DNA of 64,000 nt from Tachypleus tridentatus. Taxonomy: Eukaryota > Arthropoda > Merostomata > Xiphosura > Limulidae. Shown here piece after piece: positions 9,866-34,300 of the stretch. Where the stretch lies: positions 156,569,290 to 156,633,289 of the forward strand of contig NC_134834.1 of the NCBI RefSeq assembly GCF_004210375.1, given 5' to 3'. Position numbers and translations under genes: made by a program. The notes under the pieces are model-generated. The model was not told the origin of the DNA and made no database searches. It saw only the letters and a program-made list of their open reading frames with translations. How positions within the stretch are numbered: the stretch's first letter is position 1; every line of letters starts with the position of its first letter.

Positions 9866-9972
9866 CCCAGTGGCACACCGGTAAATTTGCGGGCTTACAA
9901 CTCGAAAAACCGGTTTCGATATCTATGGTGGGCAGAGCACAGATAGCCCTTTGTGCTTAATTACAAACAACA
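9866..9972 (+). mobile_element. Val-type SINE (family 3)
   Basis: CTCCCAGTGGCACACCGGTA, GGGCTTACAAC, GGTTTCGATATC, CAGAGCACAGATAGCCC and TTGTGCTTAATTACAAACAA are seen in order. The head resembles tRNA-Val with a TAC anticodon. Confidence 0.85.
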
Positions 9973-10154
9973 GCAACTGTTTTATTTTCTTTGTAATAGT
10001 GTGCTTCACCAGATTTAAATAAAATAGTGAAAACTATATGTTTCTAAAAAATATATAATTGTAAATTATCGCAAAAGATTATGTTAGCAAAATATAATAA
10101 TGAATATGTTACTCGCATAATTTTTATGCTATTATTATTTTTTTCAAATCACAG

Positions 10155-10231
10155 CGGCGTCAGATAAGACTGAAATGAGACCTATTTATGTTCGGTTAAC
10201 ATGGCGTGATGACACGGGCGTATATCCGGTT
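10155..10231 (+). other. Probable 5' UTR segment of endophilin-B exon 1a
   Basis: A pyrimidine-rich run ending CACAG at 10154 looks like a 3' splice site, so an upstream non-coding exon may exist. The stretch from here to ATG 10232 is open in the same frame and contains ATG 10175. No TATA or initiator could be recognised with confidence, so the promoter is not located. Confidence 0.35.
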
Positions 10232-10306
10232 ATGATGGAGTTTGGTGTTAAATCTTTTAAAGGCTTTGTTTCAGAGGCAGCTACAGCATTTTCAAGAGCT
10301 GTTCAG
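10232..10306 (+). CDS. EndoB: Endophilin-B exon 1a (N-terminal H0 helix)
   Basis: It encodes 25 residues, MMEFGVKSFKG...AFSRAVQ, which aligns with the vertebrate B1/B2 start (M-D-F-N-x-K-K ... RAVQ). The exon ends TTCAG|GTATCA in phase 0 and is followed by a 9.96-kb intron. Confidence 0.9.
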
Positions 10307-13300
10307 GTATCAGAAAATTTCAGTATATCATACAATTATTTGATAATATCTTGTAACTTTTTTATTGTTGACAATTTTGGTCATGGGAAACTATTATTCC
10401 ACAAATGAAGTGGTACAACTACAACAGTACAAGGTTTGATTAGCTTGACTTGATAAGCCTTGCAGAAACATAACAACTATTCTTAATTAACTGCAAAGTA
10501 TGCAGTACGTTAATAGTGCTTATACTAATATTAATAGTACCAAAAAAAAAAAAAAAAACAGTAGTAGAAGTTATGATACATTAATTACGTGGAGTAGATA
10601 TATTAACATAACAGTAAAAGTGATAAATTATAATTTATGATATAAAATTGTAAAGGTGAGTCTAATCGGTGTTATTAATGCACAGAAAAAAAAAAAGGTC
10701 CCAATAAATATTTTATAGAACATTTTTCCATATGATAATCACGATTCAATTGATATTTAAATTTGTGTGATTATAAAAATAATGGTAATTATATCAAATT
10801 CAGAGTGAATACATTAACATGATACAGTATAGGTAGGTCTTGTCACAAAATGGATGTGCTTTTGCCAATGGTAGTACAGGATTGTAAATTTTAAAAATAC
10901 AGTAATGTTTAATAGCTGTTTTTGAGGGGAAATGACACCAATGTTTTGATTTGAATAATTTTCACTGGGGCTTGTTTTAACAAATTATTAGGACTTACAT
11001 TTATTGTTTCTGAAATTTTCCTCTTCATTGAATGTTTTCCTTTCAGTCTATCCAAGAAAACTTTTAAGATTTTTTGAAGATTCTTGGTAATGATACTCTC
11101 TTAGTTATGTGGTAATTTATATAAATAATGCCACTCTTCTAGCAAAATGCCCTTAAGCATAGTGAGAATTTATTAGTATACCTTGTTTTGTACCTTCAAG
11201 TAGCATTCCATTTAACTTCTTTTTTCAATGGCAAATAGTGTTAGAAATTTCAGGTTCTCCTCATATGACAATCTTTTCATCTCAGGCACCATTCCAGTAA
11301 CTTTTCATTTAATCCTTTTCAACAATTTAGTCTTTCCTAAGATAAGGATCTCTAGATTAAACACAGTACTCTAAATGTGGTCTGTACAATGAAACCTCAA
11401 AATTTGTTTAGATACAAGCTAAAATCTAAAAATTGCAAGAAGGTATAACTTTTTCAAAATGTTTGCAAGTTTTTAAAAACCTCTTATAGTGAAAACTATT
11501 AATAATAATGTATTCATGTTAGTTATGTAATGATATCATCCCTAATTTAATCTCTATTTGTATCCCATGTTTTCTGAATATTCAAAGAGTATGTACATAT
11601 GATAATAAATGTATAAACAGATGAATATAATAATAAAAATGAATTTACATAAAATCCTAATTGGACTGGGATTTGAGTGTAAAACTTTCATTTGATGATC
11701 ACTATAACCACCATAACATAGTTTTTGTAATTGACTGGGGTTTGAACTTAAGACTTGCACATGAGACAGACCACTGAGCCAGTTTGAACATTACCAAGAT
11801 AGAATCAAACATTACTGACAAAAGGCAAACAGGGTGGCTTTTATGTATGTGTGTGTGTGTGTATGTATGTATGTGTGTATATATATAGATAGATAGTGCC
11901 TTTTATAGTTAAGATTTGAAAGTGAAATGTGCATGTACACATACATTACAAGAAGAGGAAAAATCAGTAATGTGGTCATCAGGTTTTTAATTTTAAGTTT
12001 GTGATTTATAGCTTTTTTTATTGAGAGTTATATTCAGAGAAGAGGTGATGGCTCACTCTACTTTATATACTTTGAATCTGAAAATAATTCTCATGAAAGT
12101 GTAAAGGTGGGTATTGTTTTATGTATTATAACCATTCTTTCACTTTATTAGGATACTGGTGGTGTACTTTATGGGCTTTTGTAACATTACTGGGGTTAAT
12201 AGAGAGAGGCTAGTGTGTTATGACAGTGTAAGGATATCTTATACATGAATGTGAGAGTCCTGTATTCAACTGTAAAAGTGTTTATTGGTTTTTGTGTTGT
12301 CACAGTTTAGATATGTATATAGCAGAATGTGATTTAAGCTGATAGAAATGATGCACACTGAGAGTGCTTAGGAATATGTGTATGAAACTGTGTAAGTTCC
12401 TGCATGTACTTGTCAAGTTGTTTCAGGCTTGACTGGTGCAACATTGCATGCTCAGTAGCTTTATGTTAAGTATAATGTATGATTTATGAATAAATAAAAT
12501 AAACTTGTATAGTACAAACATGGAAGAGGCTATTATATTTAAATGTTTCATCTAAAAGTACTGTTTTTGAGACTATCAGCACAGGCTTATTGTGAGTTAC
12601 AGTCCACCAGTAAGAGTGCCACATTTGCATTGGACTGTACTGGCAAATGTGACGTGATAACAGGTGTTTGCAGCTGTATTACTACAGCTGCATTTCAAAA
12701 TTGCTTGGCTTGTGTAGTACTGTGCTGGATGTTTAAGTGCTTTTCTTTGTGTATTGGTATATCGGTCCTCATGGAATTTAGAAAGAAATTGTCTTCAAAT
12801 TTTGGTGGAGCTATAAGCCGTGCAAAACAGGTAAGATATTACTAACTGTGGTAATATACAGGGTGGCCTGTAAGTTCCTACCCATCCATATGTTGTGTCT
12901 AAACAACATTATAATACTAATGATGAGTTGAAGGCAGCTGTTATCACGGCATTTGGAACAATAACCCTTGCTATGTTGAGGAAAATGTCTCGCAGAACGT
13001 GGTGTTGCATAATATTATGCAGCAAGAATGAGGGACAGCACACAGATACACTGGATACATAAGATATGTGGATGGGTATTGTATTGTAGAAATAAATTAA
13101 ATTTCTAAAATTAATTTTAATATTGAAGATTACAACAACTTTTGTATGGGTCAAATTGTCAGTATTTTTAACACATATGTAACTCTACTTGTAATACTCT
13201 TAGATAGAAACCCAACATCTAGTAATAAAACACAAATGTACTAGAGTATACACACACAGATGTGTAAATATAGATTCTGGTTGTTACAATTTATTATTCT

Positions 13301-16300
13301 GAATTAGGTATCATATTAATAACTTTTGTTCAAAGCAAGTTATCTACAAATAACAGAAGTAATAATTGCATAAAATATAGATAAATTAATATTCAAGTCT
13401 AACCAGAATATTGAAGATTATAAGCTAAAACGTGAACTAAATAGAAAGCATTAATTTATTGATTGCATACCTGGATATCACTGTTTTTGGAGGTTTTTTT
13501 ATGTTTTTAACCATAATCCCAATTATTTAGAATAAAATTTACATTTGGAAATATTACTTCTCTTTCAGAACTACCTAGAGCTATTACCTTGTGTGCAACT
13601 GCCATGAAATTTCTTGTGCCTTGAACAAATTCTCACTGCTGCATGTGTTGTTTCAGTCTCTGATGTAACAGTCATAATGCTGTAGCAATCCATCAGTAGT
13701 AGGGTAATGTGACATTCATATGTAGTAAACGTCGTGAGCACTAGCACATGATCCTACATCCTTCTTTCCTCAGTGCTGTCTGTGTTCAGACATGCAAATG
13801 TTTGATGACTACTTTTCTTTGTGCTATGTTTCGTTTGTCCTCATTACATTTTCATTCCATTATAAAACAATCACAATAATCTATGGAAACGTACAAATGA
13901 TAATCATTGGAAACCTGCTCAGTAAACTTAATTGGATCATTCACCTCACTTCCAAATTACTTCATGGCTTTTAATAAGCCAACATGCTTGGACTGGTTTC
14001 AAAATGGACATTTTTGGAAGGGTGCACATTGAAGTTGTGACTATTCATTGTTTGATATTACTAAAAAATTGAAAGTAATTTTGTACCTGCCAAGCTATCT
14101 GATTAACTGTTCTCAAGATTCTATATGCAGAGAATAACTTTTAATCTGGAAACAGCAAAGAATGAGAGTCTGTAAGCTGTAGTTAGTTGTAGCCTGTCAT
14201 AATGTGTCCAGACAAGTTCAGTGCTTTCAGTCAGTTTATTTGCACAGCTTAATTGCAAAAGTTTATAGTGTAAAAAAATGTTGCTTAGAAAAACAGAATG
14301 ATGTCTAAAAATGTTTTCTCTGAGTTTATGTAATGGAAGATTTTTCTGTGGAAATCAAAGCCTGTAAAATAAGCTTCAATGTAAACAGCAAAAAATTCCA
14401 CTGAATGTTAAGTAAACTTCAATGTGAAGTTCCAGTAGAACCATGCAGTGTATACATGGATAGCATTTGCTACTGTAATTGATGGCATGTCAAAAGAATC
14501 TAACCTGAAGAAACTTTTGAAAAACATGCAATGAGTTTGTTCATACTCATTATAAGAGTCATTTATTACAATATTGGTTGGTTGATTGGCATTTACTGGT
14601 GCAAAGCAACTGGGGTGACTGTGCCAAACAGCTGGTTAAACAACATAAAAGTAAAATGTAAAAATTAATCAAAGTAAAACTAAATAAACTTCAAAAAGCA
14701 GGTAAAAACTTAAATAGAATTAAAAAGGCCAATGGCCCTTAAAAATTTTAAACACAAGTGTCACCATTGCCAGTAACACTGTCCAGTGTCAGGGGTAAAT
14801 TAATGGGAAAAAAATGTATAAAATGGTGCTATTGTTCAGAGGTTTAATGATGGCATGACAATAAAATGTGAGCTATTGTGCCTTGAATGTCACAAAGGCC
14901 ACACATTGGTGCATCAGTCCAAGATAAAACAATGAGTTAAAAACTGTGACCAATGTGCAGAGCTTTGCTAGGACAAGTTCTTCCTTTTGATCCTTAAGGA
15001 AACAAGATGGCCAAAGAACAACAGAAGGTTTGATCTGAAAAAACTTGTTACGATGAGGCTTGCTTCAGTCTACTGCCAACTGGCACAAAGCTGAACCTTG
15101 AATACAGGTTTGTAGCCCATATATAGTATGGGTATAGCAGTGATAGCACCATGCAGACAAACTTAGATGTGATGTCAGCAAGTTCGTTCTCACAAATACT
15201 GACATGATCTGGTATCCAGAAAAACTGATAGAAATAGAAGATAAAGGAAAATGGGCCAGCCAATGTTGGATATCAATGAAAACAGCATGAGAACCAATGC
15301 TAAGTGATTCTAGGGCCAGTAGAAACCTAAGAGAATCAGTATAAGTAGTACAGTTGGTGTAGTGCAAAGCTTCTACGTGATCCAGGGAAATATAAATGAC
15401 ATACAACTCAGCATTGAACACAGAAACTGTAGAAGCGATCCTGTGTGAAACCATCAAACCACAACAAAACATGGCAGAGCCCACATAATCACCTGATTAT
15501 GGAACAAAACAGAAGAGCTAAATGCACAAGAAAAGATTTTATGGAGACTATTGGCAATGCTTTAGGCACCAGCAGCTTCTTGGCCATTGGAGGGCAAAAT
15601 CAAAAGGGGGAAGAAAGTGTACTGCCCACTGACCTTCCAAATCATGTCCTATGTAATTTTGGAACTGGTGGCACAAAAGATGCTGGTTGTGAACTTAATC
15701 CAAGATTCCTTCTGGTTTTGAGGTCACCTACTGATCATGGGTGCGAGCCTGCTAAAAAAACGATGCAGTTTGAAAGTGTGGGATACCAACAAAAGGTATC
15801 TCAGGCCTGTTTTTAAGCATTCCATGCCCTTTGGTAGGCAGGATCCCACCACAAACAAGGATACCATGGAAATGTGTCAAGGATTTAGGAATGTATTGAG
15901 CAGTCACTTAGACAATACAGTCAATCACTGCTGTCATGCAGATGTCTGTTGATGCCATATAGACAATGGCATGATCAAGTTCTGAGAGAGCAGTGAAAGA
16001 GGGCCAGTTGATCTGGTCCAGCTTCCACCTAAGCACATGGATTGGGTGGCATTGACCATAGCCAGTCTCCTTCAAAATGATAGGAAAATGTGGGACACTG
16101 TAAACCCTCCAAGAGAAGTGAGACGAAAGTGAAGGGGAGCAGACAGAGATCAACAGCAGTAACAGACTGACTAGGTGCATGAAAATAAAAGGTTGTGATT
16201 CAGGAGCATATGCTCTACTGAATGACTCCTCCCATCAATATCAGCACCATCTCAGAGGGGATTATGTTCTTTAAAGTCTCCTAGGATTAAAAAGGTCAAA

Positions 16301-19300
16301 GAAAATGGGCCCAAATATACATTAGGTGCCAAGACCAAAGCAAGAGGACTCAAGCAGTCACTGGAAGGAATGGTGGAAACAGACACAGAAGTAGACGTGA
16401 ACTTGTCAACACGCTTATACAAAGAGGGCAAAAGACTGCACTTTTTTGAAAACAACTATTGGAGTCCCAGAAGGATCTTTCTGCACTCCCACTGAAGCAG
16501 TGGAGTGTGGTGCAGCAGCATATATCCAAGATGGAGGTGGAAACAGTAGCTTCTGAGCCTCAGGATAAGAAATGTTGTGAACTGTTTTCAAATGCTGTAC
16601 CTCTTTTTCCTCCACCCACCTAAGGATAAGGATAAAACAAAAGTAAGAGGAGTGAGAACCACAACAGTTAACACATTGATGGTCCAGTTTACACTCATAG
16701 GCATCATGGTCTTTGCCACTATAACAAATATATGTCAAAGAACCACAACATGACATCTTCAAGTGACCGAACTGCTGACACTGGAAATATTTGAGAAGGT
16801 TGGGAATATATGGCTGTACCTTGCAGTTCAGATAACCTGCCTTGACAGCAGTAGGTGAACGTGGTTATATAAATATCAAAATTATAACATTGGTAAGCAG
16901 CATAATTCTGTCCTTGTGAGTGGTGATATGTCTCAGTGCAGAAATTCCTTGGATGGAGAAACCAGTAAGGATCTCTGACTTGAGGATGCTCTTCAAATCC
17001 CTCTCAACAATAACTCTAAGAAATTCAAAGTAGCATGGGTTTATCCCTAATGCCCTTCAAATGCAAGATGAGTTCACTGTTTTGGGGTGGACGTTTCCAC
17101 CAAGATGTCCCCAGAACATAGTTTCTTGACTGACTTAGGAGATCCAGGAAACCTCTCTAGTCCCTCCGGAATAAAAAAGTTTGGATGTTTAGATCCCAGA
17201 GATAAACTGAAAGTACAGAACCATCTCTGGGAGGTCCACTCACCATGTAAAGGAATCCACCTTGAGGGGATGTTACAAGAAGTTCAGAACTGAAATAATC
17301 AAGCAAATGAGAGAGAAAAGGGAAGCTGAGTGGCTAAATATCTGGATGAAGTTGAAAGTGTGAATGAAGCTTTGAATTTTGATGCTGACTTTCCATTAGA
17401 GCTGGAATATCCTGTTGAGCAAAATCTTGAAGATTGCCAATCAGATCTAACATATATTACAAAAATACATTGCTTTTAGCAGGAAATACCTACTCACTAG
17501 AACTCTGTTTATGCAGTGCTTAAAAGTATATTACATCTGAAGAGGGAAAGGAGCAGTGTTCTGAAATGAATTGTGTCTGCATCTCTTCCTTTAAATTGAA
17601 ATACATGATACTTGCAAATTTCTAAAACATTTTCAATAGTTTAGTTATCTTGAGCGACAAAACTGCCATATTATTATATACACATTTATAAGATCAGGTA
17701 TTAAAACTTGTGATGTGGATCTGTATGATGGCACCAAAATTCTGCAACAAAATGTTTTTTCATGAGTTAGGTGACCACTTTGAGTAATCAAGTGAAACTA
17801 GTTTCACGTTTTTTATTTTAATAAAATGGGTTGTATTACCAGTTCCCAAAAATAAACAAACATCACAATTTGGTTTAAGAAAGATAAAAACAAGTAACTA
17901 CTCCACCCTCTGAAGAGAGTCAGCTAGCAACTTGGGATTGCAAAATCCCAACAATGGCATATCATGTAGCAGATGTGATAGCTTCCAGTCTTATTACCCT
18001 AAGAAGAAAAAAAAATTATTAGCAGCTCTAGCAGTCACACACCAAGATGATGACTCAACTTTTTTTTGAAGTACAATCTTGCTTGACTTGTACTCTATTG
18101 TAGGTGCAACTACATGAATCTTGTCATGGAATGCCTCTTATGTATCAGTTGAGGTCATGTTTTCCATTTGTACTGGTTTCATGGTTAATGGTGGATCATC
18201 ATCCATGTCTGCAAAATTTAAACATGCATCATTTCATTACTGTATCTTGGGATTCATTGTTTGTTGTTGGTCTAGGTGTGGGCATATAATTTTTTTCCAC
18301 AGTTTTTGAAGGAAATTTGTTGATGTTAATGAAGTGTTGATTTATTTTGTTGATTTCATCATTAATTTTATCGGATGAGCATAGTTTTGTTGCTGTATTT
18401 ATTTGGTTTCTTAATATGTTGAGTGTTTTTGTTTCATGTACTGAGTCCCAGTGAATGTATAATCCAGTATGGATGATTTTTTCTGTATATTTCTGTTTGG
18501 ACTGGTATTGGTTCTAGTGATCTTGAGGTTAAGAAATGCTGTTTAGTTAGTTCCTCCTGTTCACAGGTAAACTTAATATTGAAATGTATAGAGTTAACAT
18601 GGTTGATTTTTTATATATATACAAAAGAAACTGTGTACGAGGGCTGTTTAAAAAATACGCGGACTGTTTGAATTGAGCGGCTCCAGTTGGTTCCAGGGGA
18701 ATCCACTTGGTGTTGCTAGGTTCACACAGATCAGCTGATTACGATGCCATTTCCCGATTGCAAATATCTTCATTTGTGTATTAGCTACGCGGCTTAAAGT
18801 GAAGTGCGATTTTTTTCGTTTGGCGGATTTTAGAATGAATGATCTGAAGGAGCAACGACTTGCTGTGAAATTTTGTGTTAAACTTGGAAAATCTGCGACT
18901 GAAACTTTTGCTATGCTTAACACGGGCTTACGGTGATGTTGCTATGAAGCTTACGGCATGTTTCAAGTGGCATGAACGTTTTAAGGATGGTCGACAGTCC
19001 ATTGAAGATGATGAGCATCCTGGACGTCCTTCCACGTCAACTGACGACCCACACGTCGACAAAATCAACACCCTGGTGTGGGAAAATCAATGTCTGACTG
19101 TCAGGGAGCTTGCTGAAGAGTGTTGGATATCAGTTGGATCTTGTTACGAGATTTTGACCGAAAAATTGAAGATGCACCGCGTTGCTGCAAAATTCAGCCC
19201 TCAGAACTCGTGAGTTTTTGGCCAAACACTCGATCACTGTTCTTCCCCACCTCCCTACTCACCTGATCTTGCTCCTTGCGATTTTTTCTTGTTCCCCAAA

Positions 19301-22300
19301 CTCAAAAGACCCTTGAAAGGAAGAAGATTTGAGACGATTCCAAAGCCACATAGAGATTAAGGCAAATGCATACTGCTGTACTAGCGGGGTGATTTGAGAA
19401 GGAGCTGGAGCACATTACAAAAGAAGTGTACCAGGACTGTTTCAACAAGTGGAAACACTGTTGGGATAAGTGTGTGCATTGGGGAGGAGAGTACTTTGAA
19501 GGGGTCCCAGACCTGTAACTTCTAAATAAAGTACATTTTGTTTTATGACGTCTGTCCGCGTATTTTTTGAACAGACCTCGTATCCAGCAGTTGCATCATC
19601 AACATACTTGTACCAGTATGGTGGTAGGTGTAAGGCTGAATTGATTGCTTGAGATTCAGTTTCTTTGTAGGTATGTGTAGAAGCATGTGTTTAATTACTA
19701 GTATCTCATTTATCACTCATCATATCAACACAATTTGTGTTTTTTTTTACCTTATTGCCTGGAATATTTTACAAGTGATTATGTTCTGAGATTGAAAAGT
19801 ATTGAGTAAGAAACAGAGGTTGCATGAAGTTTTCATAATATGTACCCATGGTAGCAAATGAGTTAATGTATTCTAAATCCTAGTGGATGAACTTGAAGTA
19901 ACTAAGTAAACCTATTCTACGTTAGACTTGTATGAATATTTAAAACATATTTGTTGTATGTAAAATTAAATTGGTTGAGTTATGTAACTAATAGATACAT
20001 AGAGCTTTTTTCCATTTTTCAATAATGGTGCAATAAGTGACCATTAGTATTTTTATTAACCATAATTTAATATTTTGTCAGTCTCTGTGTTTCAGTACTT
20101 CCTCACAAACATTATACATAAAGAAACCTTTTTGACAAATAGGTACTTTTTTAGGTAGTACATTCATATTTGTTGCCTTGCTGGAAAAGCACCTACTAAA
20201 ACACATGAAATTAATACACTATTAATACACAGCTGTTTAACTATGTAAGTGTTTTATTATATTTTAGTATACAGAAGAAAAGCTTGGCACCTCGGAAAAG
20301 ACTGAACTTGATGCCCATTTTGAAAGTTTGGCTCAACGAGCTGATAAGACCAAACACTGGACAGAGAGAATTGTATCCAGAACAGATGCTATTCTTCAAC
20401 CTAATCCAAGTGATTTTTATTATATTTTTATGTAACCTATTTATTATTTTAAATTGCATTTTCTGAAGGTTAATGAATAATTAGGACATCATACATTACT
20501 TAAGTGATTTATCTAATGTCTTTTTTTTTTTTTTTTATCCAAACACATTTAGTGGCCACATAGTTGCTATATTAGAAAAGGTTTTAATGTCTGTATTATT
20601 GAATAAGGATACTAGTTGTTCATGGTTCACATTTGTTACACTGTGGTATGGCATTTTTACTTTATATACACAGTAGTAAATACTAAGAGAATACTTTGAC
20701 ATTCTTTAACAAATATAAATCTTATTGCTGTTATGAAGTGTGATTAGTGTTTTGAAGATACTTCATTTTCACACAATTGCCTGTTTTTTTCTATTTAGTT
20801 AAATGATTATTTGAGCAAATTTTATGGTATGATTTTAGATTAGAAATTTTATTAGTCTCTCTGCTCCTTTAAGTTACTCTATTATTAAAGTACCATTGCA
20901 ATATTGCTAAGTTGTGTGTAAAATATATATATTTTTAATGAAATAAAAAAGAATAATGTGTGTTGCAGTTTTTGATTATGACATTGTGATTTCATTACAC
21001 TCTTTAATTGCATATATACTTAAATTCAACATGAAAAATTATTTATCATTTTATTGCTTTTTGAATAAATGTTAAATAACCACTAGAGAGCTTCCTTAAA
21101 ATAATCTGAAATGTGACAGTTTATGTGTTTGTATGTGTGTGTTATTGGTAACACACTGAGTAAAAGGGGCCACCTCTGTCTTTGGTAAGTTTATTTTAAC
21201 TATGTATTACTTCTTTAATTTCGTTTATTTTTATTTTTTGCTTATCCTTTTTTACTTACTGGTTTTACAGGGTGTTATTACTTTTAGTGTTTTAATGTAT
21301 AAATATTGGGTTTTACTAGAGATTTTAAATTCCTTAAAGCTCTGAATTATTTAGTTTTTTTCAATATTTCAGAGTGAAGAATGGGATGACTTATGAAACC
21401 ATTATCTTAATGGAATATAATTATCAAGTTATAATCCAAAACATATTCTAGATAACTTCAAATGAACTCTTCTTGTTTATACTTACTATATGTTAATATT
21501 TTATGAACATTTAAGTCTTATTTTTTTTCTACACAAATTGTTTTTATTGTCCTAGATGCAAAGGTTGAGGATTATTTATTTGAAAAACTTGAGAGGAAGC
21601 GGGACCGACAGACTAATTTTGAGGCATTGGGACAAGACATGATTGATGCTGGTTCAGATTTTGGTCCAGGAACTGCATATGGTAAGGAAATGCAATAAGT
21701 TATTGTACTGGCATTTTCTAGCAGTGTATGGTTTTCTTTGGATCTTATATTTACACATTTTTATAAACTTTTTATGTACCTACTTGTTTGTAGGCTCATG
21801 AATTTATTACAAAGTTTCTAATAAAATAAGAGCCATACAAGAATGTAAAACCAAAAACTGTCAGTATTGCTATTAATTATGCTAACTATTGCTATGGATT
21901 CAAATGTATTTTATGTGAAAGTGAAGGGTTTTACCTACTTTTGGTCAGTTTTTTTCACTTCATTCAGTATGATGGTATGTGGACTGCATTAAAATTTTGC
22001 ATGGAGAAATAATAAAATTTGTGATGTAAAATTAATAAATTTTTTTTTATTTTCTGTATTACATATAAGAAAAAGAAATAATCCAAGGTATGATTTTTTC
22101 TTATTTGTTAAAGAATTTACATATCAATATGTTTAAATAAACTATCGGAAAAATATAATAAAACATTTGAGAAATTAACTTTCGATCATAAGATATAGCA
22201 ACTTCTTTTTACATGTTCTAACAATAGACAAAATAGGACTTTGTTGTGACATAAATCCTTTGTGGAAAGTAACCCATTTGCATTTGTAAAATAGAAACAC

Positions 22301-25300
22301 CATGACTTCATGCTTCCATGTACCTCAGCTGGAGATTTACTTTAGCATATTTTTTTCAAATTAATGTATATTATCTTTTTGTTAACATATTGATCTTGAA
22401 TTATGTCAGTCATAACTTTGCCAGTGTGCAGACCTTTTGAATAAAACAGGAGTATTTTCTCCTTTACTACTGTGCTTAGATTTTATTACAACATTGACAG
22501 TAAACAGAAGCATATCTTTCATTTTATTTGGAATATGCAGCAATTATGGCTATGTATGTAAATATTATTTTCATTGAACATGTGGCATAATTTTATTCAT
22601 CTATGAAAGTAATTGTGTCTACTACTGTATCTGTGCCAAATACATTTTTTTTTAACCTTCTGTGAGCTATTTGAAGTTTTTGAATGAATTATCTTATCTT
22701 TGATTAAGTAAATCAACAGCACTGATATTTCATGTACGTGTACATACCAACAAGTGCTACAATGTTTGTGTTGTATGTTGCACTTAAATATGAAAACCAA
22801 AGATGTAGATTTTTGTTTTTTTGTGGGTGGTGATGGGTGTGCTTATGTAATAGCTGAACTTTATCAAAAATATTTACTCTTAAACACACAAACTTGATTT
22901 TTTCTAGTGGTACATTCTAAAGTTATGTATATTTGAAGATTTAACGTGTGTGTGTGTGTGTGTATACGTAAAATCTTTTGTCTCTCTTTGGGTGTGAAAC
23001 AGTATAAGACTAAATTCTGAAAGCTGCTTTTTACTTATATACAGTCTAATAGTAGTGTTTTATTTACATTTCATTAAACTTCTTTAGGTAGCACTTTAAT
23101 AAAAGTAGGACAGGCCCAGAAAAAACTAGGAAAAGCTGAGAAGGAGTTTGTTCGAATAGCAAGCACCAGTTTTATTCAACCTTTACGAAAGTTTTTAGAA
23201 GGGGATATGAAAACACTCCAAGTAAATAATATTTATTATTATATTTGAGAACATGAATGTACAGATACAGAGTTAAACTTATCCAAAAAGGAAAACTTTA
23301 GTACAAATAAAATCGTTTTAGGGCATTCTTAAAAGTTCTGTAAATAGATTAAACAGTTACATTCAGTGGATTTAAACATTGTTTTCTTTTGAATTCCAAG
23401 TCACTTATTGCTTTTCTCGTAACCATACTTTTGTTTTATTTTTTTATTGTGAATGAGCTGTAAATCATTGTTTTTATTTCCTATATGATATCTTACCTCT
23501 TAAAAATAGCTCTTCTCAATAAATATTGCCCTCTGTTAGTGCACATTTTTGACATTTGCCACTGGCTTTCTATCTCATGCTTTGCATATCCACATGTAAG
23601 TGATTATATAGCAACTCTCCACAAATTTGAGTATGATGCAACTCCTATCATAACCACCACCCTTTCTGTATTGCATTTGTTAATCACTTCTCGATTGACA
23701 GTAGTGCTGTACAGGTGTACTTTTTGTGTTCGTAAATTTGTTAGCACTTTCTTTTGTACTACAGATGTAGTTTTTCTTTACTATTTTCTTGTTATTTCTA
23801 TATTTAGAGGGGCCATTTTGATAGTATATTGTGAGTCCTCAGCCTTTGGCAAGTGGTGCTTAATCAGGTTTGTGTTTGAAAATATGCACTTTTCATCCCA
23901 TTACTATGCTCAATGTCAATTACCTTGTAGCTTTTCCTCCTGCAGATCTGAGTTCCAATTTCAGATATAGGCAGATGTTGGTTGTTCAGCTGTCATCTAT
24001 ATTGAAACAGTTACTTTGCAGGCTTAGGTTTGCATACCATTGAGATGAGGTGTTCTATAAGACTGCTAGTTGTTCTGTTTAGTGGTTTTTCATAATAATT
24101 ATTTTTATCCAGACTGTACTCTCATGGTGAGTAAAACAGACAGGAATTGCTGCCTCTCTCTGATGCTGTGTAATGTTGAGACTTTTTCTGCTGTAGACTT
24201 TACAATTTCAGATGCTGCTGAATGTTGGTTGATTGACTCTGTTGATGTTTTAGCTCTGCTTTACAAAATCAGGTGTCTAAGTTGCCCATTGTACTGGATC
24301 AAGTGATGTATGTTACTGGACATGTGACCTGAGTGCACATACTCATATACCATGTCAATGCAAATAATGTGATGTTAGCTAGACATGACTGAAAGATCAG
24401 TATAATAATATAATATATATGTAAATATATGGCATTATGAAACTTAAGCTACTTAGACTGAACATTTGTATTTTTGTGTTATAATATGTAGTCATTCTAG
24501 CAAGAGAAAATCCTTAATTTATATTTAATTTTTTTATGATATTTATGACCCCACATAGTTAGAGTATAAAAAATAACAAAATATAAAGTCTTACTGAAAA
24601 CAGATGTGTGAAATGTACTTAGGAGGTTACAGAGATTAAGATTTCGAGATTTGGGGGATAAAGAATTTTTTTTTTTTGTTTTATTTACTCATAACATGAA
24701 ATCATTTTGCACTCAGACTGATAATGAAACAGACTATTTTAAGAAACAAATCTTTAGTAAAGATATTTTGTTTAAAAAATGATTTTTGGTGTACAAAAAG
24801 CTTGTAATCTTTACTAAAAGTATAACAAGTTTTGTGAAGATACAGATGCTGTCTCAAAAGTTATAGTGCAGATACTTAATATTTGCAAATGTGTAGATGA
24901 ACTTGTCTATATTGTACTGAGTCCATAGCAAAAGGGTTAATCAGTAATTTGTATTATGGTATTCATTCATGTTTTTCCACATTTTATGTTTGTGACATAA
25001 TCATAAAAGAGTAGAGAGTATACCTGGATCAGATATGGTGACCTCCCTCTAAGGTGTCATATTTTCTTTTGTTTCACATCTTATGGTCTCTCTTTGGGAG
25101 CTTCCTAAAGGAAGATAATTTTTTTCACTGGCCCTCCACCAGTTCAGTGTGAGATTCTAACTGTTCTGTGAGTGGAGGTAAGATATTGTGTCAGAAGTTA
25201 ACATTTTCCTAAAGTGAAAATATATTTCTGATAGATACTTCCCTTCCTTATATTTTCACTCAGCTTCCATATTTCTAGTGATATGTGGTGCAGGTTTTGT

Positions 25301-28300
25301 GACCAACCTCATAGTGATTATTAAATGCAAAGGGGACCCTGGTTCTGACGGGGGATGTGTCACACCTCTATTTACATGTGGATAAACAGGAGGTGGAAGG
25401 CTAGTGATGAGTGTTGAAACCTTGTGCCAATAGAGGGCTGTACTAATTGAGAAAAGCTATTTTGTGAGAGGAGATAAATATCTATCATAAATACACCTTT
25501 AATTCAAGAAAATGTTAACTTCTGTAGAAATTTTCATTTAATTAAGTGGAACATATGATGTTTGTAAACTATTTGAACTCAAAACAAGTTTCAAGGCTGT
25601 TAAAAGTTTACACATTCCTGGCTTTATCAGCTATTGACAAGTTGTCTATGCATTTGGGAAATGTAATGATTCCAACAGGAAGCCAAAACTCAACAATTAA
25701 GGCAAGAATTTTTATTTTTTGTTATTTTTAATCTCAGTGTTTCAGTTATAATTTTATTTTGGTGGAATGTCGTGTGGGGAATATATTCAAGTATTATTTT
25801 AAAGTTTGGTATTGCAAATTTTGTGTGGGAAAGGCATATTGAAATGAATTTCATTATTTTTCAGCTGTTATGTCAGTAGTAGTGTAATATAACCTTAATT
25901 AATTTTCTTTAAAAGAACAAGGATCATAGAACTCATAGGTCTTAAATTTAATGTTTTATAATTCCATTAAAAGAGTGGTATATGTTATCATTCAAAGTAT
26001 TTGAGCTGAATTTGTTTCCTATATGTTAGAAAGAAAGAAGAATATTAGAATCTAAGAGACTTGACTTGGATGCCTGCAAGAATAGGCTACGAAAAGCCAA
26101 ATCTATGGAAGCACAAGCAAATGTAAATTTTAAATTTTGTACCTTTTTATAACGTGTTTGTGAGTAAATAATGTTTTCCTCTAGAAAGTTAATATATCAT
26201 TCAGTTTAATATAGGCTTTACTGTTGGTCTGTAATTTTAAAGTGTATGTACCTTTTTTTTTATGCAACTTTGAAATTGTGTATCTCTTGTTGGATTTATA
26301 ATTGGCATAAGCTTGTTCTTTAATATTATGTTTGTAGCAATTTTAAGTTCTTTTCAAACATTTGTCTCTTCTTTGTATCTAATACAATGTTGGAGTTTCA
26401 AATAAACTTTGATAAAAGGAATTAGATAAGAAGTAATTATCAAAGTAAGGCTTAATCTTGCATCAGTCTTGTTAATTATATCTTGGCATACTTACATGTT
26501 AAAAAAGGCAGGTTTTAATTGAAAGATCATATAAAATCATTTTTCTTAACTTTTCTTTAATGCAAACTGGAGTTTATGATGAGACATTTCTATAAACGTA
26601 TATAAAATTACAACCTCTTTAACTGGATTAGTAAACTTGTAGAATATCTATAACTCCTGAAAATGCTAGAAAATTTCAGAAAAATATCAGAACAATTTTT
26701 TTAAGTGCTAGAAAACAACAGTAAGATTTTGAACATAGATTAGTGTCTCAGTTATTTTGGTGATGGTTAGTATAAAACAGATCTGCACACTTGGTAAAGG
26801 AATGAAGTATAACATAGAGGATGAAATAGTATTCTGTCCATTGAAGAGTTTAGATATTGAGTATCTTGTAAAATTACTTATTTCCACAAGATTACTTGGC
26901 TTTTAAATACTTTATCTATAAGAAGTTAACTTTTTTAATTTAATTCAAGAAAAAAAAAGAGGAAAATGGTATATTCTGTTTATGGATTGCATACTTTTTA
27001 TTGTCTCTAGGTAATTATAAGAACTTTATTATTAAATGCATTCTCCATAGAACGTACCATTCTTACAATTCTGCTTTAATAGTCATATGATCTATCTATG
27101 GGTTATTTCTTAATCTGTAAAAATGTTATTCTTTTTATTACAAGACAAAACCTGACCTAATTCAAAGGGAGGTTCAGCAGGTAAAGTGATGCTGTAGAAA
27201 ATTATATTCTTAAAGTGGCATTGACCAAATTGTTTAGTAACTGTGTATTATTGTTGCTTTGAAAAGTATGCTGTTTATAGTTAATTTTGTGAGACAAAAA
27301 GTTTTTGTGATCTTGAAATCACGTAAGATGTACAATATTTTGCATTAAATGAAATTCAGCATAAGAAAGTTATAGAAATTTTTATTTAAATAATTTATTT
27401 TGTACTTGGTGCTTGTAATCATTTTCTTATTATAAAAAGGTGAAAGTTTATGTTAACTTAAATGACATTCTTAGCATAAGCATTTTTTTTAGTTAATAAG
27501 ATATTTCATTCTGGGAATTTTCATTGGTCATGTCTATTTATAAGGAAGATGATTATAAAAATATAGACATGTACAACAGAATTATTATATTTGTTTATGC
27601 TTTTATTTGATATATTCTATTAGATATCTGTTAGATTACTCACAATTGTATCCCTAGGATTTTTTTTCCAAAATGTACAAGTCTTGATTAGGTAAATTTA
27701 TTTCTTTTGACCATTTTAAGTTGTTCATTTTATAATTAGAAGATCTTCTTGACATATGTAGTTATTTTCTGAACTTTTTTAAGTAAGTAATAATTGAGCA
27801 AATTCTTAAAAAACAACAAAAAAACAGTTATTGTCTTACAGTTTCTTGTTTATTGTTATTGTTAGGCTGAACAAGAGCTTCGGGTAGCCCAAGCTGAGTA
27901 TGATAGGCAAGCTGAAATCACCAAACTGCTTTTAGAAGGGGTCAGCAGTGCACATGTGAGTATTTTCTGTATGATTTATGCATTTTTATCAGAAATATTT
28001 TGATTCTTCTGTGAATTTCTGTAATTTGTGAAAAAATGAACAGCATGTTTCAATGTATTTGTAACTGTGGCATAGCAGTTCAGAGTATGGCTCTGAGTTG
28101 TATGCTTGAGTACAAATTTTTAGCATGTAGCTTGTCATCTTTTGACTGATTTGAGATCTAATTACTGTTTTGAACTCAAGAGGTCAAACCCTTTCAATTG
28201 ATGTATTTGACCACTACGAAGATTTCATAAATTAATTTACACAAATCCTGCCTGAAAGATTTTCTATTTGAGAGTAGTCCAGTAGAGATCCAGATAGTAA

Positions 28301-31300
28301 TGAAATTGAATCAGGTGTACATGTGCTCTACGCTTGGTATTTCTGGAGCCAAGAAATAGAACTGCATAAAAGAATTTCAGGCTCTACAGCTGTTTAAAAT
28401 TACAACTTGTTTATATATATATTTCATTTATTGAATAATAGCATGCTTGTTTAATTTTAAGCTTTATTTTTCTTATTGTAAACAGTTATTATTTTGTGAG
28501 TCTAAACAGAACAAAGGATACATTTGTTTTTAACAATATTGTTTGAGGTAGTTGGGTACAAGTCCATTAAATATCTGATCAACAGGCATGAAAAGTCAAT
28601 TTCATAAAGCATTATTAATAGTATTTGCAAGACTAATTTATATTTTTTATTTCTTTTAGCAGTTGTCCAAATCATAAGAAACTGCGATAATATGTTAAAA
28701 ATACTGTAAACTAAACAGTAATTCATTGATGCTAAAAATGTTTCTTAATTGTAAAGATTTAATTCTTAAATCTAGAAGGAAGTAAAAAGTAATTACAGAA
28801 TAAAAATTTTAATGCATGTTTTATGTTTTTAAGGCTAATCATCTTAGATGTTTAAACGACTTCGTTGAAGCACAGATGTCGTATTTCACACAGTCTCAGC
28901 AGTACGTAGCTGACCTTCAGAGAGAGATGTCCAGGTAAAACTTAACATGTTTATAACAGTATGCCTTAAATATGATGAACTTCCTAACTTTTTTCGTACA
29001 TCATTTTTTGCATTGTAATTGTACACTTTTAATGGCACATTTTTGTATATTGCTGTCTGTATTCTTAGGTTGCTCTTTGAAATTGTTTTACAACAAAAGA
29101 AAATAAGTTTTACAACATGTGTATCAATTAATGAAACCTTTTCATTCTTGTACAATATGAAATCAGAAGGCCAAAAATTTATAAGAATACTTTTAAGATG
29201 TTCTAAAAATCTATTAAAATATTTTTATCATTACATTTTAAAATCTAGTAACCTTGAAACTTTATAATTACTGTATTAATATTTCTAAACTATTAGCTTT
29301 AATTAAAATAACTTGCATTCCTTTTCTTTGGAAAAATTAAATAAAAACCACTGATCTATTAAAGTTTAATGTTTCAGAAAGTTATTCATTATTGCCTACA
29401 ACTAAAATGTTGCTATTGTAATTTACTATTCTTCTCAAAAGGAGATTGTGTAAAACTTAATTTGAATTTATTTAGAAGTATTTAATAACACAATAACTCA
29501 GCAACATAGATGCTGCATACTAAATTTGATATGAAGAAAATTATATAAGTTATGAACTCGTTGCTTTTTTAAGGCAGTGACAAACTTAGTATGGTTATTA
29601 ACTGTTGATAGAACCAGTATTAGTCTTTAAAAAATGAATCATGCACTATAACTAGATTACAAATTTTGATTTTGTTGAAGGGGACTGTTGTTAGTTTTCC
29701 ATGTGTAAGTCATGGTGAGGCTTAACAAGCCAAATCTTAAGAAATGCTAATTTACTGATATCAAACTGTATTAATTTGAGGAATAAGCGAGTACAATTGA
29801 GAAATAATGAAATAACATTCAAGTGGTGTACTATACTCAGTAGTTGAAATTTAATTTTTGGATTGTATTATCTTTAATTAAAAAAGTGTTAAAAACCATG
29901 GCTTTATTTGTATTTATTTTTTTTTACCAATATAAATGTTAAATTGATTTTACAGTTAGTATTGAACATTATTTGAGAGTATAACACTTGCACATTTCAA
30001 CTCTCCTCCTTGGAAGATCTGTTTTTCTGAACAGTTCTCAAACTTAATCCGTTCCAGCAGGCTGTTCAAAAACCGAATCAATTTTTCCCATAAGAAATAC
30101 TGTAAATTAAATTAATCCATTACAGACCTCCAAAAATTATGCATTATGAAGCATTTTAAGTAAAAATATTGCTTATTTATACTTGTATAATAATACTGAC
30201 ATGCATAAAGTCAACCACAAAAACTATAAACACAATAAAAAAAAACAATAAATGAAAATTTAACTGCACTTTACCTGTGCTGAGGAGAGCTGATGGTGTA
30301 AGTGAAAGGTGGTGAGGAACGTGGAGAGTAGGAGGGTTATTATTGTTTGGAAGAGGAGTCACCTTCCATAAAAATGTCAGGTAATTCTCCTTCTGGGGTT
30401 CTTTCTCTTTTCTGTCTCTTTGCACTGCTACAACCTGCTTGACATTCACTGGACCTATTTCTCACTAAAAACTTGTCTAATGAGGTTTGTTTCTACCTGC
30501 ATTTTAAAATGTTTTTGAAGTAATACATAGCATTGTCATTGAAAAGGTTTATGCTGCAGTTTACTACAGCTTTGTCAGGGTGAAATATTTCCACAAAACT
30601 TTGTAACTCTCCCCATTTTCCACACATTTCCTTGATTAGTGAACTAGGAACATCCTCCCTTCCCTTCTCCTCATCTGAAGACACTTTCTTAGTTGCCTTC
30701 TGTTGCTGCTCCTTCTGAAGGTCTTGGAGTTCTTCCGTGGTGAGCTCAGTGTTGTGGTCTTCCACCAACTCCTCCCCATCATCACCACTCACATTCAAGC
30801 CCATACATTTGCCAAGTGAGACAATATCCTCGACAACAGGCTCAGCCTCAAAGCCTTCAAAGTCTATCTGCTACTGAGTCTGGCCACAATTTCTTCCAGG
30901 CTGAGTTCATGGTCTTCAAAGACACTTCCCTCCAGGCTTTGTCTATGATCCTCAAGCAATGGAGGATATTAAAGTGATTTTTCCAGAACTCTCTGAGGGT
31001 TTACTCTGTGTCAGTGCTTTGGTGTAGAGTTTCTTAAAGTTTGATATGACCTACTGGTCCATAGGCTGAATGAGAGGAGTCGTGTTAGGGGGCAAGAGCT
31101 TCACTGTAATGAAACTGTACTCCTCCACCAACCCATCCTTCAAGCCTTGAGTAACAACTGTTTTTCCATGATGTAATTCTTTACACTTGGGGCACACTTC
31201 ATGGACCCACTCCATAAAAAAATTGCCTGGTTACCCATGCTTTACTATTAACCCTCCACATGACATTTAGTTTACTTTTCAGGACATTATTTTTCTTACA

Positions 31301-34300
31301 AACCCTCAGGTTCTCAGAATGATACACAAGCAAAGGCTTAAGTTTTAAATCCCCACTTGCATTACTACATAACAATAGAGTTAGCCTGTCCTTCATTGGC
31401 TTGTGTCCTAGCAGTGACTTCTCCTTGGTGATGTAGGTCCTCTTTGGCATTTTCTTCCAAAAGAGGCCTGTCTCATCACACTTGAACACTTGTTGGGGAA
31501 TAAAACCCTCAGCTTCTATATAGCCCTTAAATTCCCTAACAAATTTATCAGCAGCGTCTTTGTTAGAACTGGCACCATCCCCATGTCTCGCCACACTATG
31601 CATGCCACTTCTCTTCCTAAATTTTTCAAACAATTCCCTAATAGCCTTAAAGGCAGCACTCATTCCAGGGGTGTTTTTTTAAGAGGTCAGCATGCAGCTG
31701 CTTTGCTTTCTCACAAATGGTGGTCTCAGAAATGCTATCACCAACTAACTGTTTTTCGTTCACCCAAATCAACAAGTTTTTCTACCTCTTCCATTGTTTG
31801 TGATCTTTGTTTCGTAACCACTGTCACTCCTTTTACAACATCAGCTCTTTTGATGACCTCTGTATTTTTCAGTATGGTGCAGACTGTAGACTTCACCATA
31901 CCAAACTGTGTAGCAAGGTCAGACATGCAAACACCACTCTCATACTTCACTATGAGATCTTTTTTCACCTCTATTGTAGCTCCAACAACTTTTCTTTCTG
32001 GTTTGCTGCTTTCATTATCCTTCTTTGACCCCATGGTGGCTTATTTAATCAGAATATTTAGAAATACAAAAAAACAACAAAAAGAAAAACGAGAATGTCC
32101 ACAGCAGATTTTAGCGGGGGTGTGGACTGAGCGACAGGTGTGGATAATATGTTTTGGGCAAGCTTGGCGTGGGCCGAAAATGGTCAAAGGGTCGTTTGGG
32201 TCATCATTCAGGGGTTCGGGCCACGACAGCTTGGTTCGGGAACCATGTTTATGTTCGACAACTGATACATGTTTTTCTCAAACAATATGTTTGAAAACCA
32301 AGTTATTTGAGAAGGGAGTCATTTGAGAACTGAGGAACCACTGTATATTACATTGAGGAAAATGCACTACTTCAACCACAAAAGAGTCACTAGCTGTTAC
32401 TGGCAGTCTTTATATCCAGGAATTATTTCCCTGACTTTACCTGTTATGGGAATGAAAACATAATTTTTAGCATCATTGAAATAGGGATCTCTGCATCACC
32501 TCGCTGTTGAGGATTTATGTTATTTCTACATTCCCATACTTTCCAAGGTTTGCCTTCATAATCTAATAATTACATCCTATTTCATCACAAGTATGACAAG
32601 TGTCTGCTATCATCAATGCATTACATGCTAAGCAATTTATATAGTTGTTACTGTATTGCAGTGTATTTGAGTTCAAATCTGATACAGGCTGTTTTAGCAA
32701 TGTCATCAGTGGGTGTGTAAGGGACACAAGTACACCTGTGTCAAGACATTTAGGGGCTCTGTCTCTGAGTCTTTGTTTGTGTGTGTGTGTGTGTCTTTTA
32801 TGAGCCCACTGTAAATAGTTTAAAGTTGTATATATGCACACATACATAGGCATTCACCATGTGTGGCATAATTGGGATTAGAATGTTTACCATTGCTTGG
32901 TACTGTTAGCTAGACTTTCAGTTGAAGGCACATACTTGCAAATTGAGTTAACATGTATTTATAGGTAGTGTGTAGAGTGAGAACTGTTACAGTAGGTTAC
33001 TTTTAAAAGTCATAATTACTCTTCTGTGTGATGCAACAGTAATGTTGATTAAATAAACTGTGTGTTCAGTAGTTTCAAAATTTTGTCAAACCCACCATCA
33101 AAATACAGTAATTCAGGTTATGCAAAGCAAAATAACAGAAAAAGTACCAATAACTTTCTGGTACTTGACTTATTGTACTTTCTTGTTTAAACTTGCCATA
33201 AAATAATATAGTTTGTGGCTGATTCAAATTTTGCTGTTGATGTTCTTATTTATATAAGGCTTTCTTAGATCAGCTACTGTACCTGTGCTCTGTAACTCTT
33301 GTATTTCAGTTTTCCACCATGAATTAACAAATCCTTCTCTATTGGATGTCATTATTGACATTATAGAGAAGTGAATATGTATGGTTGAAAATACAGAAGA
33401 AAATTTAGTACTTTATAAATTTATGATATTCCTTAACTTTTCTTGTTACTTGTTTATCCGAAATGTATGTTATTAGTTAAAACACGTGATTGAGTAGAAA
33501 TATTGGTAAATGTGTGTTATAAAAGGAATTGAGAATACGTTTTTTTAAATTGTATAATACTGATAAATATATGGTTTGTTTCTTGTATTAGTTACGCCAG
33601 TGTGATACTTTAGCATTGACAGGAATATTGTTGATAAGTTTGTTTCTAACACTTTTGTATTCTATTATCTATTATCCAGAAGAAAAAGAAAAATTATAAT
33701 TTTCAAAGTAATTTTATTCTTTGTTAAGTATGTCTGTGGCTCTTTCAAGTGGTGGAACAACAGATTCATTCCAGAATATTTACCCATCATTTTCTGCAAA
33801 TGCTGGGCCAGTGTCACCAGCCCCTGATGACAAGAGAAAACAGGCTAGAGTGCTTTATGATTATGATGCTCATGATAAGTCAGAATTATCTTTGTTAGCT
33901 GATGAAGTAAGTTATCAAAGACCTGGGTGTAATTTTTCTAGCGCATTTTTAAGACATTTTGGGATTTTTGAAATTTTGTTTGGAGTTGGAGTTGAAAATA
34001 AAGCATTTCATGCAGGTTTTGATTTTAAAATATCAATAAGAAGTGTAGATCATGTAGAAAAAGCTTAAGGAAATTCTGAGAACCAATTGATAACAAAGCT
34101 GTATTTTTTTTTATTTGCTAATCTACTAAGGATTTCTTTACCACCAATGTCCAAGGAATGAACATAACCATTCAGTGAAGACTTGTTTGCCATACATCAT
34201 AATTCTTAGTTTCTGTCCTTCCTCTTGGCTAAAGGTTTTCATTTTTCATAGCTCATTCAAAAAGTAATTAAATTAATCCATTAATCTGTCTACAATGGTC

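Follow-up and report, generated by a model that had tools for sequence, protein, structure and literature searches.

The Endophilin-B Locus

The window, by which we mean the whole 64,000-base stretch of DNA that was analyzed, comes from the horseshoe crab Tachypleus tridentatus and spans positions 156569290-156633289 of contig C10; the genome searched holds 2,167,478,450 bases in 205 contigs. Between 10232 and 35096 of the window, on the + strand, lie exons 1a to 9 of an endophilin-B gene (Table 1). Exon limits were read off the sequence, and the protein query used in the searches omits the 36-base microexon. The initial annotation had named the gene endophilin-B, an assignment borne out by the BAR and SH3 domains of the predicted protein and by its best match. 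Its BAR domain matches PF03114 at 237.6 bits (E 1.9e-70) when the translation starts with exon 1b, the best match in the PDB is human endophilin-B1 (E 2.5e-97, the endophilin-A chains reaching E 7.6e-18 or weaker), and exons 8-9 code for a C-terminal SH3 domain (PF14604, 53.5 bits). In exon 1a, homology begins at the second ATG, at 10235.

A protein search of the crab's own genome gave 15 matches, of which seven are this gene and seven belong to the one other endophilin-B gene found, on the minus strand of contig C12 at 10.189-10.214 Mb. The remaining match, on C19, was weak (E 7.3) and was taken as spurious. Intron 1 of the C12 gene measures about 1.2 kb, and the gene carries an exon of the 1a type, MEFSVKSFKGFANEAGKAFTRVVQ.

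Table 1. Exons of the endophilin-B gene and other open frames in the window (window coordinates)
Feature	Position	Strand	Remarks
Exon 1a, coding part	10232-10306	+	MMEFGVKSFKGFVSEAATAFSRAVQ; donor GTATCA, phase 0; counterpart in the C12 duplicate
Exon 1b, candidate alternative H0-coding exon	12771-12830	+	MEFRKKLSSNFGGAISRAKQ; donor GTAAGA, phase 0
Exon 2, YTEEKLG...	20268-20409	+	acceptor common to 1a and 1b; end placed by hand so as to run on into exon 3 (PNPN/A)
Exon 3, N-BAR domain	21556-21681	+	limits set by hand
Exon 4, N-BAR domain	23088-23221	+	limits set by hand
Exon 5, N-BAR domain	26030-26122	+	limits set by hand
Microexon of 36 bases, N-BAR domain	27145-27180	+	TKPDLIQREVQQ; phase 0; NKPDMIQREIEQ in the C12 duplicate
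Exon 6, N-BAR domain	27866-27955	+	limits set by hand
Exon 7, end of N-BAR domain	28834-28934	+	limits set by hand
Exon 8, linker and start of SH3	33729-33906	+	limits set by hand
Exon 9, remainder of SH3 and stop	34989-35096	+	
Open frame, 154 aa	31199-31663	-	resembles a Tigger/CENP-B-like transposase fragment (by eye); intron between exons 7 and 8
Open frame, 195 aa	39838-40425	-	resembles a Tc1-type transposase fragment (by eye)
Open frame, 263 aa	54562-55353	+	looks coiled-coil-like (by eye); may be an exon of another gene

Frame, Donor, and Phase of Exon 1b

In N-BAR proteins, the segment called H0 is an amphipathic helix that inserts into membranes. The initial annotation proposed that a stretch between exons 1a and 2 codes for a second version of this helix and ends at a consensus phase-0 donor, and both the translation and the donor of exon 1b agree with that description. 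The donor, CAG/GTAAGATA, matches 8 of 9 consensus positions, as compared with 6 of 9 for the exon 1a donor. Because exon 2 begins at 20268 with YTEEKLGTSEKTELD, preceded by ...ATTTTAG, exons 1a and 1b can both join it in phase 0, and the claim that 1b fits the phase of the gene is thereby upheld. The sequence could belong to a different transcript, such as a nested or read-through RNA, that is never joined to exon 2. We consider this highly improbable, since the gene continues with exon 2 in the right phase, and since SRAKQ followed by YTEEKLG mirrors human SRAVQFTEEKLG.

No stop interrupts the frame of 1b for 100 codons, from 12543 to 12842. This length is unremarkable because the + strand of intron 1 has three stretches of at least that size. 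The start codon is uncertain because in-frame ATGs also occur at 12543 and 12729. With the frame open this far upstream and in-frame AG dinucleotides allowing exon starts at 12585, 12597, 12603, 12615, and 12738, the segment could instead form the 3' part of an in-frame exon spliced between 1a and exon 2, in which case the protein would carry two successive H0-like helices. These acceptors are poor, however, with only 5 to 7 pyrimidines of 13, the residues preceding MEF are cysteine-rich (by eye) rather than H0-like, and 1b begins where the human H0 does. An internal exon is accordingly very unlikely.

Resemblance of Exon 1b to an H0 Helix

How far the 1b peptide resembles H0 beyond chance was assessed in several ways. 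Candidate first exons were defined as an ATG followed by 15-35 open codons and a phase-0 donor that fits the consensus at 4 or more of its 6 flexible positions; the window holds 21 such candidates on the + strand and 18 on the - strand, and exon 1a itself fails the donor filter. Scored against the human endophilin-B1 H0, exon 1b reached 40 and exon 1a 42. The next candidate elsewhere in the window scored 8, and 1b read from the upstream ATG at 12729 scored 7. In 300 random windows generated as first-order Markov sequences with the dinucleotide statistics of the window, none of 5,827 candidates reached 40 and the best scored 25. A looser scan admitted frames ending at any GT (1,779 on the + strand and 1,719 on the - strand). 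Here 1b scored 38 and 1a 40, and no third H0 exon was found, with other frames at 17 or less against the human H0 among the best eight per strand, frames within 1a aside.

Shuffling the 1b peptide 20,000 times never reproduced its score against the human H0, 16 shuffles reached its score against exon 1a, and 34 reached its score against the 1a-type exon of the C12 gene. When a hidden Markov model was built from these three H0 sequences, 29 of the 20,000 shuffles scored at least as well as 1b. The global score between 1b and 1a is a weak 23, and an unrelated stretch near 32778 has a local score of 36 against 1a, where 1b has only 23. Exon 1b thus resembles the human helix rather than 1a, given that the 1a-type measures are weaker and an unrelated stretch comes closer to 1a.

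The Pfam BAR model gives a further measure. The protein scores 237.6 bits with 1b, 237.7 with 1a, and 225.4 with neither, so that the two exons bring gains of 12.2 and 12.3 bits, respectively; eight shuffled versions of 1b gave 225.4-228.7 bits, a gain of 0.0 to 3.3. The gain supports only the residues AISRAKQ, because in both exons the match takes in just the last seven residues. Against human endophilin-B1, the protein scores 328.2 bits with 1b and 330.8 bits with 1a. The earlier claim that 1b codes for an H0-type helix is therefore sustained by a match to the human H0 beyond chance and by a Pfam gain like that of 1a.

A frame of just 20 codons, for which no second copy was found, might still owe its H0-like look to chance resemblance in intron sequence. 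The weak similarity to 1a, with a global score that 16 of 20,000 shuffles reached, and the unrelated stretch that does better against 1a leave some room for such an account. Against it stand the random candidates, none of which approaches the 1b score against the human H0, and a Pfam gain that equals that of 1a and is absent in all eight shuffles; we regard the chance of mere coincidence as very small.

Divergence and Probable Selection

Alignment of exons 1a and 1b, with a gap of four codons, pairs 60 bases, of which 31 agree and 29 differ. Identity by codon position is 11, 11, and 9 of 20 for the first, second, and third positions, a pattern that by itself is no sign of selection. Of the ten residues that the two share, five are encoded differently, among them S (TCA/AGC) and R (AGA/CGT). 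In simulations with 4,000 runs each for exon 1a, the C12 exon, and exon 1b, the sequence was allowed to change neutrally to about 52% identity under a simple substitution model with no indels and AG/GT as the only donor requirement. The ATG, frame, and AG/GT were kept together in 0.45%, 0.30%, and 0.27% of these runs, respectively. No run preserved an H0 score of 40, which is a harsh criterion when the starting sequences themselves score 42, 37, and 40.

Since the start, frame, and donor of 1b have survived a divergence that would seldom spare them under neutrality, 1b has probably been under selection for much of its separate history. The argument presupposes an H0 exon as the ancestor of 1b and is silent on the most recent past. 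Within these bounds, the function that the initial annotation ascribed to 1b gains from the divergence pattern, which speaks for selection on the peptide. What the sequence of exon 1b shows is its reading frame, phase, donor, and H0 similarity, along with a divergence that neutral decay would not easily produce. Chance and a neutral relic were both judged unlikely on the random windows, the shuffles, and the simulated decay.

A former alternative exon that was long under selection and has only recently fallen silent would leave much the same record. Such a history would accord with the failure to find 1b in 59 kb at the C12 locus or, in a search of short reach, anywhere else in the genome, and with a repeat element lying a few to about 25 bases 3' of the 1b donor. 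Its ATG, frame, and donor are all intact, though, and in simulated decay at 0.1 substitutions per site at least one of the three was lost in 61-63% of runs. We rate a recent relic as improbable. The repeat itself, at 12836-12900 just 3' of the donor, has 39 other matches among those listed. It came to light in a search with 12700-12900, in which 40 of 1,201 candidates were scored and 39 of these proved to be the repeat 3' of exon 1b; the matches mostly begin at 12850-12857, the earliest at 12836. This search is also the one that bears on whether the putative promoter sequence is unique in the genome.

Start of Transcription

The initial annotation also suggested two promoters or first exons. 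A second promoter at 1b found no support in core promoter motifs, which were uninformative, or in the CpG profile. A scan for core promoter motifs upstream of 1b turned up nothing beyond a CRE-like site at 12650, and the same scan found none upstream of 1a. The observed/expected CpG ratio reaches 1.12 in 9901-10300, a segment covering most of exon 1a. Between 11 and 37 kb, the ratio per kilobase is 0.00-0.36, except for 0.50-0.61 at 18-20 kb, and in windows at or beside 1b it is 0.08-0.37, like the gene body. This profile fits a promoter at 1a and lends no support to a germline-active one at 1b; a tissue-specific start at 1b might lack a CpG trace. The body of the endophilin-B gene as a whole (10700-37000) shows a sharp CpG depletion with CpG-richer flanks, as expected from gene body methylation. 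The more CpG-rich stretch at 18-20 kb contains a mariner-like element (by eye).

Because 1b resembles a complete H0 that begins at its own ATG, it likely has a promoter of its own. It could also be a real alternative H0 exon that lacks one, with a non-coding leader, shared with 1a or more distant, spliced in front of 12771 and the choice between helices made by splicing. That the CpG content shows no sign of a separate promoter would then be natural, and acceptor-like sites do precede 1b, giving exon starts at 12718, 12688, 12580, and other positions, as one also precedes 1a (10155). Such sites are common in AT-rich sequence, however. There are 14 AG sites in 12559-12770 alone, none of them with a strong pyrimidine tract (8 of 13 at most), and we think it unlikely that a spliced leader accounts for 1b.

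As an exon prediction 1b is well supported, and the best reading is that it is a real alternative H0 exon, retained or gained in one duplicate. That 12771-12830 functions as an alternative first coding exon of the endophilin-B gene we hold at a probability of roughly 0.6. Transcription would then begin within intron 1, at most a few hundred bases upstream of 12771, and translation at the ATG at 12771 or an in-frame ATG slightly upstream. Splicing would join 12830 to 20268, and the H0 of 1a would be exchanged for a shorter, more cationic, and less hydrophobic helix on an N-BAR and SH3 body that is the same in both forms.

Properties and Possible Role of the Two Helices

The description of 1b as the more cationic helix holds, with a net charge of +4 as compared with +1 for 1a. 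Counted from MEF, 1b has 20 residues and 1a has 24. Hydrophobicity is 0.118 for 1b and 0.407 for 1a, and the hydrophobic moment is 0.358 for 1b, 0.389 for 1a, and 0.285 for the human helix, with both methionines included in the 1a values. The moment of 1b is a moderate one, reached by 7.7% of shuffles; the human value was reached by 15%. From its charge, the predicted 1b helix can reasonably be expected to shift toward anionic membranes through electrostatic binding. That the two forms target different membranes is speculation. According to PMC11920102, human endophilin-B1 cannot be recruited to the outer mitochondrial membrane in response to diacylglycerol unless it has H0, and a changed H0 would plausibly matter for that reason.

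Human endophilin-B1 (SH3GLB1, Bif-1) has the same order as this gene, H0 followed by N-BAR and SH3, but differs in that the literature searched shows no alternative H0 exon for it; nor did that literature yield an alternative H0 or alternative first exon for any endophilin-B. Alternative first exons that alter protein N-termini are a general phenomenon, and 1a and 1b follow the usual plan of two phase-compatible first coding exons sharing one acceptor. Unlike the general case, the exchange here would replace the whole membrane-inserting helix of an N-BAR protein, so that 1b is ordinary in its category and unusual in its place. A natural H0 swap on an unchanged BAR body would amount to a ready-made experiment on helix charge and length.

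The Duplicate Gene

The only relative examined was the C12 duplicate, in which no counterpart of 1b was found, a result that tells against the exon. A scan of 59 kb, including about 27 kb upstream of the C12 gene, showed no recognizable 1b-like exon; the best other frame scored 28 against 1b, and 1b scores 98 against itself. Given these figures, a moderately diverged copy would have shown and a strongly diverged one would not. DNA comparison of the two loci (window 9501-36000, + strand) gave 11 matches. Nine of them coincide with exons and two lie 5' of exon 1a; the introns were otherwise without matches. A whole-genome search with the 1b peptide found nothing beyond 1b itself, and its range is evidently short because exon 1a went unlisted too.

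The C12 gene presumably derives from genome duplication. With no recognizable 1b there, either C12 has lost the exon or C10 has acquired it. A gene pair in which one member has 1b and the other apparently lacks it could shed light on isoform loss and gain following the duplication of a gene or genome. A broader proposal, and a tentative one, is that horseshoe crab endophilin-B, perhaps as a trait of long standing that the other copy no longer has, uses alternative first exons to provide two interchangeable H0 helices, one hydrophobic and the other shorter and strongly cationic, which would steer the scaffold to differently charged membranes, and that this option was kept or gained in one duplicate after genome duplication.

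A scan of a 13.6 kb C12 intron, comparable to the one for 1b, did recover the duplicate's 36-base microexon, near C12:10192004 and with the same splice sites. The microexon of the window may lie at the same place as exons 6 and 7 of vertebrate Bif-1 and may resemble an insert in human endophilin-B2; it is possibly a deep bilaterian neuronal microexon. In vertebrate Bif-1, the neuronal isoforms Bif-1b, c, and e arise through alternative use of exons 6 and 7, which alters the N-BAR domain (PMC10269655 and PMC5891588); the microexon also lies in that domain. The Bif-1 exons are internal, whereas 1b would alter the first helix.
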